Positions 19,890 to 24,817 of a DNA stretch of 64,000 bases are shown here, piece by piece; the stretch's first letter is position 1; the number at the start of each line of letters is the position of its first letter. The stretch lies in the NCBI RefSeq assembly GCF_964030655.1, contig NZ_OZ034915.1, positions 620,001-684,000 of the forward strand, written 5' to 3'. Made by a program: the position numbers and the translations under genes. The notes below the pieces were generated by a model, which saw nothing but the letters and a program-made list of their open reading frames with translations, did no database searches and was not told where the DNA came from. This DNA is from Spiroplasma endosymbiont of Poecilobothrus nobilitatus. Lineage in GTDB: Bacteria; Bacillota_I; Bacilli_A; Mycoplasmatales; Mycoplasmataceae.

Positions 19890-21036
19890 TTTTAATTTTG
19901 TAGAAAACTCTTGATGAAATAAAAAAATCATCAATATGATAACTTTAAAAGAAAATTATATAAACTTTTAATATTGTTATTTAACTTTTTTATACGTTAA
20001 AATATAATACCGATGATTGTTGGTTTGGCGTTAAACCTTTATGCTGGCATTTTCATTTTCAGAGATTTAAATAATTTTGAATGTTCGTGAAACCTAAGCC
20101 ATGATAATGAATTAAGGATTCTTTAAGATTTGATTGTAATTTACTAATTTTATTTAACTCCCGATAACTAGCATTAGGATTTGTACTAGTTTTAGTTGCT
20201 AATAAAATAGAATTTGTTTGTTTTGCTACTAATAAATATAATGGTTGCATGTCAGAAATAATAATTGAATTTTCTTTGATTAATTGTTTATTAATATTTT
20301 CAATAATTCACTGTTTTTGTAATCGTTTTGTGTTGGTTGATTTAACATAAATATTATTATTGCTATCAACAGCCATTTGAATACAACATTTAGTGTTGGT
20401 TGAAAATGAATTGAATCAAGATGAATTTTTCTTTTATCAAATTTATCTTTAAAATTACCTTTGTGGATTTCTTTAATAAATGTTTCATCGATTTGAATTT
20501 GGCCATTTAACGTTTTAAATTTTAATTGGGTGTTTTCTAATTGTTTTGATTTCATTATTTTTTGGCGATTATATCAAGCGGTTTTCGGTGATGTTTTAAT
20601 AAAGCGGGAAATCATTTTACTATATTGGCCTAATAATGAAATTTGAATCAATAAATTTCACTGTTCATATTTTAAATGACTTCAATACGTAAAATGATCA
20701 CGAAAAGCATCAAAACTAGCACGACATTTTTTGCATAAATATTTTTGTTTTCCTTCAGGATTATGACCATTTTTAACACAATAAAAAGATTGACAATTAG
20801 GACATTTAATACCTTTATCCCTAAATTTTTGATCAATTTCATTTAAGCGTTTTTGTTTTTTAATTAATTCTGCTTCTTTTTTGACTTTTTCATGAAATTA
20901 TAAAAATTGATCATCTGTTAAACTATTTATTAATTCTTCAATTATTTTTTCCATTAATTATTCACCTCGTATATTAAAAATATACCTAATTTTAGGTATA
21001 TTTTATAAATATCAAGAGTTTTCTACAAAATTAAAG
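19890..21036 (-). mobile_element. IS1595-like element, copy 3
   Basis: A 1147-bp copy on the minus strand with both terminal inverted repeats. A perfect 8-bp target duplication, ATTTATGG, lies at 19882-19889 and 21037-21044. It sits between a terminator and the promoter of the tRNA pair; the right-hand duplication abuts the TTGTTT -35 box. Confidence 0.95.
19990..20954 (-). pseudogene. IS1595-like transposase of copy 3, stop and frameshift
   Basis: It starts at ATG 20954 and ends at TAA 19990-19992. A TAA replaces a Glu codon near residue 19 (DQFL-stop-FHEK), and a 5-bp insertion near 20409-20418 in the HLDSF segment shifts the frame. The zinc ribbon and catalytic segments are still readable, but no full-length protein can be made. 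Confidence 0.9.
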
Positions 21037-21044
21037 ATTTATGG

Positions 21045-21074
21045 TTGTTTTTTAAATAAAATTAATGTTATAAT
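21045..21074 (+). promoter_or_regulatory. Promoter of the tRNA-Ile/tRNA-Ala pair
   Basis: TTGTTT (21045-21050), an 18-bp spacer and TATAAT (21069-21074) lie 12 bp ahead of tRNA-Ile. The IS target duplication ends at 21044, so the insertion landed exactly at the edge of the promoter. Confidence 0.65.
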
Positions 21075-21086
21075 GATTTAGGTTTT

Positions 21087-21163
<77 letters not shown>

Positions 21164-21180: not shown

Positions 21181-21261
21181 GGGCCTGTAGCTCAGCTGGG
21201 AAAGCACCCGCCTTGCACGCAAGGAAGGGGGTCGACGGTTCGATCCCGTTCGGGTTCACCA
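21181..21261 (+). tRNA. tRNA-Ala (TGC), with an extra 5 nt in the anticodon arm
   Basis: Acceptor GGGCCTG/CGGGTTC (with G-T pairs), T arm GACGG-TTCGATC-CCGTT and encoded CCA are tRNA-Ala-like, and the loop CTTGCAC holds anticodon TGC. Total length is 81 nt instead of 76. After the loop the sequence reads GCAAGGAAGGGGGTC where a normal gene would read like GCGGGGGGTC. This leaves two mismatches in the anticodon stem and lets CCTTGC pair with GCAAGG across the anticodon. The D stem also has a C-A mismatch (GCTC/AAGC). It is probably defective, unless the sequence is wrong. Confidence 0.75.
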
Positions 21262-21290
21262 TTTCAAAATAAATTTAAAAAATTAATTAA

Positions 21291-21322
21291 AAAAGCATAT
21301 TAAATTATTAATATGCTTTTTT
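21291..21322 (+). terminator. Rho-independent terminator after the tRNA pair
   Basis: A 13-bp stem, AAAAGCATATTAA (21291-21303) with TTAATATGCTTTT (21308-21320), loop ATTA, then more T residues. Confidence 0.85.
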
Positions 21323-21442
21323 AATTGAATTTAAAGGTTGTTTGTTGCTATTATCCTTAATTTTTGTGGGGGAAAGTTTAATATAATTGCTTTTTTAGTA
21401 TAATATATCTAATGCAAAACAGAATATAAACAGGGGTGAAGT

Positions 21443-22372
21443 ATGTCAATTTTTGATAAAAATGAAAACGAAAGATATGCATATTTTTTAACGAATTTTA
21501 AAGAAATACTTGCATATTGAGTAGTTATGATTAATGGTCAATTTATTAAGTCATCATTAGATAATTCATCAACTAAATTATTTGGAATGAATGTTGATAA
21601 AGCAATTTTATTTTTTGATATTAATTTAGATTCAAATAATGAATTACATGAATTAGGGATTATTAAAGAAAGTTATAGTATTGATTTAAAAAATGATTTA
21701 GATTTGAATTTAGGGAAAAAAATAAATAAGAAAAACGAAGGAAAAAATTATGATTTAATTTATAAACAAATTGATAATTTTTTTATTGAAGATTCAGAAT
21801 TATTGAAATTTTGTGAATATACATTAAATATTACTAATTTATCAATGGAAACGGATGGACCAACAATTAGTGCTTTGAATAATTACAAATCAGTTGCTTT
21901 TAATAGTTATCCAACAAAAATTTATGAATTATTAGATTGATTTGGTATTGAAATTGTTGATGCAATTAATAACGGATTAAAAGTAAAACGTTTTGGTGTT
22001 AAAGACAATAGCGCTGGTAGTAATAGCAAGATAAGAAGAAAACCAAGATTAATGTCAAACAAAACTTTAAAAAATATTGATAATGATGATAACAAAATTA
22101 ATAAAGAAATAATTTTTACTGAGTATTTTGCAAATAATGGTAATATTAGTGCTAAGTTAATTGCTTTAAATAAGTTGTTACCACTGTTAGAAGAAAAACG
22201 AGCTGAAATTAAAGATTTTAATCCTAAGTTAGAATATGATATTTTTAGTTTTTTACAACATACAAAATATCGTAATTCTTTAACATATCAAGAAGATAGC
22301 GAAGCTGAAAAATGTTTGGATAAAGTTTTTAAAAAAGCGATGCTATCGTTATATTTATTAGATATTGGTTAA
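21443..22372 (+). CDS. Unknown acidic protein of 309 aa
   Basis: The ATG at 21443 follows CAGGGGTGAAG, and a TATAAT lies near 21398. The frame uses UGA Trp at two places. No signal peptide or membrane helix is seen. Residues 50-75 (KAILFFDINLDSNNELHELG) loosely resemble the first exonuclease motif of DnaQ-like proteins, but the catalytic Glu after the first Asp is absent (FDINLD). The C-terminal third (from about 204) is helical and charged. I do not recognise the family; it may be Spiroplasma-specific. A type C IS begins 22 bp after its stop. Confidence 0.75.
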
Positions 22373-22461
22373 AAAACGAAGAAAAAAATAAGACTGCACC
22401 CCAAAAAGTAAGTAAAATAAAAAAAGATTTTGTTAAATTTTTATAGGGGGTGCATTTTTAT

Positions 22462-22725
22462 ATGGCAAAAAAAGGGCAAAAATATAACAAATATACATCA
22501 GAATTTAGAACAAAAATCATTGAGGAAATTAAACAAAAAAGTTTTTGAATAGTAGCAAAACAATATAATATAAATGCAAATACAGCAGAATCTTGATGAA
22601 CAAATCATAAAAAAGGAAAATTAAACAATCCTAAAGGACCTAAAATTTCTTTTGCCAAAAGAAATTTAGAATATTATAAAACAAGGTATGAATTATTAAA
22701 AAAGATCCATGACTTTTACAATTAA
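22462..22725 (+). CDS. Type C element OrfA, copy 2
   Basis: An 87-aa HTH protein nearly identical to the copy at 2967, here with a proper ATG and a TAA at 22723-22725. Differences include SFW for SCW and NTAES for NTVES. With orfB deleted after about 85 bp (remnant ends at 22808) it has no transposase partner in this copy. Confidence 0.75.
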
Positions 22726-22808
22726 GAAAACTAAGAATAGTCTCTTTTATTAAAAAAAATTGTCGTGAATATTCAATAAAATTATTACTAGAAGTAACAG
22801 GGTTAAAA

Positions 22809-23484
22809 TGGAATGGTAACACTTTTTAGGGCACTTTTTATATAGACATTTGTTTTCTAAAAGTAACTGGAGATAAATAATTTAAACTGCCATGAATTCG
22901 AATATTGTTATATCAATGCACAAAATCAAAAAGTTCGTATTTTAATTGTGTTAAATTTTTAAATTTTTTACCCTTAATAAATTCAGTTTTAAAAGTTTTG
23001 TAAGTTGTTTCAGCCACAGCATTATCATAAGGGCAGCCTTTATTGCTTAATGATCTTTTAATATTAAAAGTTATTAAAATTTCATCAATGATTTTATTTT
23101 TAAACTCATTACCACGATCAGTATGAAATAGAGTTATTTGATTTAATGGTCGTGTTATTTTATGAAAAGCTTGTTGGACCAGTTCGGCTGTTTTATTCGG
23201 CCCAGCACTATAACCAATTATTTCACGATTAAACAAGTCAATTAATAAACAAATATAATGTCATTTAGCGCCAACTTGAACATATGTTAAATCACTAACA
23301 ATAACTTCATTAGGTTTTTTGTTGTTAAATTGACGATTTAAAATATTATTAATTTGGTCATTATTGACTGTTGTTTTATGATTATGATATTTTAATTTGG
23401 TGTATTTAGAAACCAAATTATTTTTGATCATAAAGAATCTTATTTTTCGCCGCGATAAGATGATATCTTTTCTGTTTAAAATAA
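22809..23484 (-). mobile_element. Type B IS3 element, partial reversed copy
   Basis: It starts with the right-end repeat TGGAATGGTAACACTTTTTA at 22809 and is cut at 23484, where the forward copy begins. The outer left-end repeat, orfA and the beginning of orfB are missing. It is an inverted copy of 24031-24706, giving arms of about 676 bp. Confidence 0.9.
22838..23484 (-). pseudogene. Type B OrfB, 5'-truncated
   Basis: Covers OrfB from [15 protein letters not shown] (C-terminal to the start region) to TAA 22838-22840. It includes all three DDE residues ([34 protein letters not shown]). There is no start or OrfA, so it is not functional by itself. Confidence 0.85.
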
Positions 23485-23565
23485 TGGATAGGCTACAATT
23501 ATTAGGACCATAATTATATAGACTTAAAAATTAGATAAAATTATTAAGAAAGAAGGAATATAAAA

Positions 23566-23844
23566 ATGGGAAATAAAACTTCATACTCTGAAGAATTTAA
23601 AAAACAAATTATCATGCTATATAAAAATGGTAAAAGTGTTATTAATCTAGGGCAAGAATATAATTTACCAAAACCAACTATTTATAGTTGAGTTAAAAAT
23701 TATAATAATTCTGGTTCATTTAAAGCAAAAGACAATCTCACACTAGAAGAAAATGAAATAATAACTTTACGAAAAGAACTTAAAGACTTGAAAATGGAAA
23801 ATGACATTTTAAAGCAAGCCGCACTGATAATGGCCAAAAAATAA
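23566..23844 (+). CDS. Type B OrfA (HTH and leucine zipper)
   Basis: A 92-aa IS3 OrfA: HTH in [20 protein letters not shown], then a zipper-like end ([19 protein letters not shown]). It ends at TAA 23842-23844 just after an A6 run (GCCAAAAAATAAC). OrfB lies in the -1 frame, so this A6 is the likely slippery site for the OrfAB transposase, as in other IS3 elements. Confidence 0.88.
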
Positions 23845-24677
23845 CAATAATTAATAACAACAAAACAAAATATTCAGCAAGAAAAATATGTAAGATTTTG
23901 GGTTTATCAAAATCAACGTATTATTATCAAACTAATAAATGCATTAACAAGCAAGTTAATAATTATGAACAAGAAATTATCAGTGCCTTTAATAAAAGCC
24001 GCAAAATTTATGGGGCTCGCAAAATTAAAGTTATTTTAAACAGAAAAGATATCATCTTATCGCGGCGAAAAATAAGATTCTTTATGATCAAAAATAATTT
24101 GGTTTCTAAATACACCAAATTAAAATATCATAATCATAAAACAACAGTCAATAATGACCAAATTAATAATATTTTAAATCGTCAATTTAACAACAAAAAA
24201 CCTAATGAAGTTATTGTTAGTGATTTAACATATGTTCAAGTTGGCGCTAAATGACATTATATTTGTTTATTAATTGACTTGTTTAATCGTGAAATAATTG
24301 GTTATAGTGCTGGGCCGAATAAAACAGCCGAACTGGTCCAACAAGCTTTTCATAAAATAACACGACCATTAAATCAAATAACTCTATTTCATACTGATCG
24401 TGGTAATGAGTTTAAAAATAAAATCATTGATGAAATTTTAATAACTTTTAATATTAAAAGATCATTAAGCAATAAAGGCCGCCCTTATGATAATGCTGTG
24501 GCTGAAACAACTTACAAAACTTTTAAAACTGAATTTATTAAGGGTAAAAAATTTAAAAATTTAACACAATTAAAATACGAACTTTTTGATTTTGTGCATT
24601 GATATAACAATATTCGAATTCATGGCAGTTTAAATTATTTATCTCCAGTTACTTTTAGAAAACAAATGTCTATATAA
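23838..24677 (+). CDS. Type B OrfB transposase, intact
   Basis: 280 codons in the -1 frame relative to OrfA, through UGA Trp, to TAA 24675-24677. The N-terminal HTH-like part ([15 protein letters not shown]) precedes the integrase core with [20 protein letters not shown] and [14 protein letters not shown], giving a complete DDE set. There is no independent start near the beginning; a methionine-free upstream part argues for synthesis by frameshifting from OrfA. Confidence 0.88.
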
Positions 24678-24817
24678 AAAGTGTCCTAAAAAGTGTTGCC
24701 ATTCCAATACTTTTTATTAGTACTTACTAAAATGGGTGCACTCTAAAATAATTCGTTTTTTATTTATTAAAATTATTTTAAGAAGTTTTCCGTTATAATT
24801 TGTAGTAGGTGATTATG

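Follow-up and report, generated by a model that had tools for sequence, protein, structure and literature searches.

A redundant tRNA-Ala(TGC) gene is probably turning into a pseudogene in a Spiroplasma endosymbiont

tRNA pseudogenes that derive from redundant copies can still be recognized as tRNAs but have a broken stem and score low against the covariance model, and the same genome carries an intact isoacceptor at another place. Mutation by template switching is well established as a concept for RNA hairpins (PMC8794818), and template switching with insertion into stem halves has been documented for rRNA (PMC8794818). An unusual tRNA-Ala(TGC) gene in the Spiroplasma endosymbiont of Poecilobothrus nobilitatus bears on both. 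It shares all of the listed features with tRNA pseudogenes and shows no essential difference from them; its insertion happens to place a perfect inverted repeat across the anticodon. With the template-switch mutations (PMC8794818) it has in common that an inverted repeat was made perfect inside a stem-loop gene, but here the insertion is partly a tandem duplication, and the functional stem is disrupted rather than mended. We propose, with a probability of roughly 0.88, that this gene is a redundant copy turning into a pseudogene. The event itself is real, and we regard it as the ordinary decay of a spare tRNA gene.

The gene lies in the window, the 64,000-nucleotide stretch of DNA that was analysed, where ARAGORN calls a tRNA-Ala(tgc) at positions 21181-21261 on the forward strand. 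At 81 nt instead of 76, it has the length stated in the original prediction. It belongs to one transcription unit with an intact tRNA-Ile(GAT) located at 21087-21163 on the same strand (ARAGORN and Rfam, 72 bits). The unit is preceded by a probable promoter at 21045-21074 (forward strand; TTGTTT, 18 nt, TATAAT), which is conserved in the genus as judged from an alignment read by eye, and tRNA-Ala is followed by a terminator-like hairpin with a T run at 21279-21332 (forward strand), which close relatives keep in the alignment. Directly downstream of the unit, a 309-aa ORF (21443-22372) is kept in relatives and has no Pfam match. Two segments of the surrounding DNA are absent from relatives. The first, inserted at 19892-21018 (ending near 21036), is about 1.1 kb long; its inverted ends read TTAATTTTGTAGAAAACTCTTGAT, and ATTTATGGTT is likely to be a 10-bp target duplication. 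This insertion ends immediately before the probable promoter, which is kept, at some 50 bases from the start of tRNA-Ile. The second, of about 2.4 kb at 22390-24744, lies between the 309-aa ORF and rplI and carries two IS3-type transposase genes in opposite orientation (rve and HTH_Tnp_1 domains) within a 676-nt perfect inverted repeat. At the locus, we found no evidence linking either of these flanking insertions to the change in tRNA-Ala.

With the Rfam tRNA model, the altered gene scores 34.5 bits, which is above the gathering score of 29, compared to 64.0 bits for the intact tRNA-Ala copy of the same genome; the 31 other tRNAs found there reach 53-75 bits. Its identity of 89% to the intact tRNA-Ala over the whole length marks a clear tRNA homology. 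HPnc0260, L20_leader, AbsR25, Plastid-ycf2 and other weak Rfam matches remained below their gathering scores and were dismissed as chance or as overlaps with the tRNA or the terminator. Alignment to the genus consensus (GGGCCCGTAGCTCAGCTGGGAGAGCACCTGCCTTGCACGCAGGGGGTCGACGGTTCGATCCCGTTCGGGTCCACCA) revealed four substitutions, C6U, G22A, U29C and C71U, in addition to five extra bases. Substitutions turned two acceptor-stem pairs into wobble pairs (new U6-G67 and new G2-U71), and one substitution broke the D stem by a C13-A22 mismatch. The T arm is normal, as had been expected; the acceptor arm, for which the same had been assumed, is not fully so, and neither is the D arm. Apart from its T arm, the gene retains CCA, the G3-U70 pair, the promoter and the terminator.

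The extra bases fall on the 3' side of the anticodon stem, where the region reads CCCGC CTTGCAC GCAAGGAAGG GGGTC. Based on the alignment with 13 congeners and a placement test, the insertion can be given as AAGGA at 21221-21225 (forward strand) or, in an equivalent placement, as AGGAA at 21222-21226. Past the anticodon loop, GCAAGG is the exact mirror of CCTTGC within the sequence CCTTGC-AC-GCAAGGAAGG, just as the original prediction had described. Sequence and placement test locate this inverted repeat, CCTTGC-AC-GCAAGG, across the anticodon at 21211-21224, and the sequence also contains a tandem AAGG-AAGG at 21221-21228, both on the forward strand. The effect of the insertion on the arm was estimated from RNA folding energies, which do not include tRNA modifications or tertiary contacts. 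For the ancestral arm, the canonical form with a 5-bp stem and a 7-base loop is predicted at -7.6 kcal/mol, versus -5.0 kcal/mol for a competing CCUUG/CAGGG hairpin that includes a U-G pair. The mutant arm folds freely at -12.2 kcal/mol and reaches -4.1 kcal/mol when the canonical inner pairs are forced; the canonical C31-G39 pair has a probability of 0, and the canonical loop is not predicted. In the best fold of the isolated mutant arm, CCUU pairs mostly with the second AAGG and not with the first, and therefore the CCTTGC/GCAAGG hairpin is predicted to be only the second-choice form in the isolated arm.

The gene had been taken for the single and essential tRNA-Ala(TGC) of its genome, as is usual in mollicutes. 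This did not hold: a covariance search of the whole genome, as had been proposed, identified 32 tRNAs in 1,434,273 bases, among them a second tRNA-Ala(TGC) at G000:C1:103394-103469 (G000 being this genome). This copy is intact, 76 nt long, matches the genus consensus at 76 of 76 positions and sits in a Cys-Arg-Pro-Ala-Met-Met-Ser cluster; it can read the Ala codons in this genome. The arrangement is that of Spiroplasma in general, with one tRNA-Ala(TGC) copy after tRNA-Ile and the other in a Cys-Arg-Pro-Ala-Met cluster. In a search of 60 genomes of the family with the intact gene as query, two tRNA-Ala genes occurred in all 14 Spiroplasma genomes and one in all 46 others; both copies are 76 nt long in each of the 13 congeners. 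The single tRNA-Ala of the other genera is found in the Pro-Ala-Met cluster wherever its neighbourhood was seen. Extra partial tRNA-Ala-like matches in G018 and G205 were considered as parallel pseudogenes and rejected, as both fetched matches turned out to be tRNA-Val; the third, weaker match in G018 (G018:C1:806848-806905) shows 76% identity.

The 81-nt form is present in one of the 320 genomes of the order and absent from the other 319, and accordingly no relative was found that carries it without another tRNA-Ala. Scans of the named genomes and of viral contigs gave no match to the 81-nt anticodon arm, and in the literature searched, no tRNA-Ala pseudogene of Spiroplasma is described. Occurrence in a single genome would also fit a sequencing or assembly artefact, in which the insertion and the other changes are errors of one assembly, and so would the short inverted repeat and the tandem repeat at the insertion site and the completeness estimate, which at 95.6 is below the 97-99 of all other genomes of the genus. 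However, the insertion comes with four substitutions, the remaining tRNAs of the genome are normal, and all indels in the 29 listed neighbouring ORFs are multiples of 3 when compared to G012, G006 and G001. The latter points to the absence of a general indel problem in this part of the assembly and makes a general fault unlikely, so that we consider an artefact improbable.

The pattern of divergence is in line with a loss of constraint. Against the consensus copies, the altered tRNA-Ala has 4 substitutions in 76 positions plus the 5-nt insertion, compared to 6-9% in the close flanks and 1-2 differences in 77 positions for tRNA-Ile, all of these being small counts. The flanks differ from the closest relatives (L033, L038 and L040) by 5-6 positions in the upstream 60 bases and by 7-10 in the downstream 110 bases, and tRNA-Ile differs from them by 2; the intact tRNAs of the cluster mostly show 0 differences, and aligned blocks to the closest relative, G006, are on average about 96-97% identical. 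On these small counts, the altered tRNA-Ala evolves at about the rate of the DNA around it, which is what a copy freed from selection should do. A few changes also occur in copies of the congeners, in the Ile-linked copy of G001 and G010 and in the cluster copy of G013, and this scatter is consistent with two interchangeable copies. The Ile-linked gene of G001 (L040) and the cluster gene of G013 (L075) have three identical tRNA-Ala changes, GTTGGG, GCGCC and CGTAGG, in different copies, which looks as if gene conversion shifts sequence between tRNA-Ala genes.

The G3-U70 pair is recognized by alanyl-tRNA synthetase. Its retention, together with that of promoter, terminator and CCA, would be expected if the 81-nt RNA had acquired a new role, either as a regulatory RNA or as a chargeable tRNA that does not decode. 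This is nevertheless very improbable given the restriction of the form to one genome, its near-neutral divergence, the C13-A22 mismatch in the D stem and the second wobble pair beside G3-U70. More remote still is that, in this Spiroplasma, the altered tRNA-Ala is made, charged with alanine via G3-U70 and used outside decoding.

How the extra bases arose is a separate question, as a quasi-palindrome mutation would be a route to a pseudogene and not an alternative to one. By this route, which is possible but doubtful, a nascent 3' end GCA would have paired with the TGC of CCTTGC and copied AGG, thereby perfecting the hairpin in one or two events. The exact 6-nt inverted repeat CCTTGC/GCAAGG is indeed new and absent from the ancestral form, the competing hairpin CCUUG/CAGGG was already available to the ancestral arm, and the rRNA cases mentioned above provide a precedent. 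Yet random insertions of the same length into the ancestral tRNA create a new inverted repeat of at least 6 nt in 4.9% of cases, and when insertions of 1-5 nt were enumerated exhaustively or sampled, 4.8-5.1% of them produced such a repeat (6 nt, spacer no longer than 8); a repeat as good is thus obtained by chance in about 5%. As it was noticed after the fact, the new repeat is suggestive of templating at best. Furthermore, templating would account for at most one of the five inserted bases, as the addition of an A alone perfects the arm; the remaining four need a separate AAGG duplication. The proposed templated origin may apply to the added A but not to the tandem AAGG, and the insertion may be read equally well as +A plus a tandem duplication of AAGG.

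Taken as a decaying spare copy, the gene can be explained as follows. The cluster copy stayed intact, and the Ile-linked copy has gathered the four substitutions as well as the 5-base insertion in its anticodon stem. This insertion is best explained by a single added A, which turns GCAGG into GCAAGG, and a slippage duplication of AAGG, with GCAAGGGGG as the intermediate if the A came first and the slippage followed. A transcript is probably still made from the retained promoter and is predicted to fold as an extended hairpin in which the 7-base anticodon loop is lost; such a transcript should be unable to decode and would probably be broken down. The altered gene is known from one genome, and this reading, made from the sequence alone, refers to that genome and not to fixation in a population.

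The ARAGORN call on its own would score the altered gene as a functional tRNA-Ala. Read as a decaying spare, it gives a snapshot of how a pair of identical tRNA genes loses one member. A single copy is present in the family's remaining genera, so a change from two tRNA-Ala copies to one would lead to a state with which bacteria of this family live.
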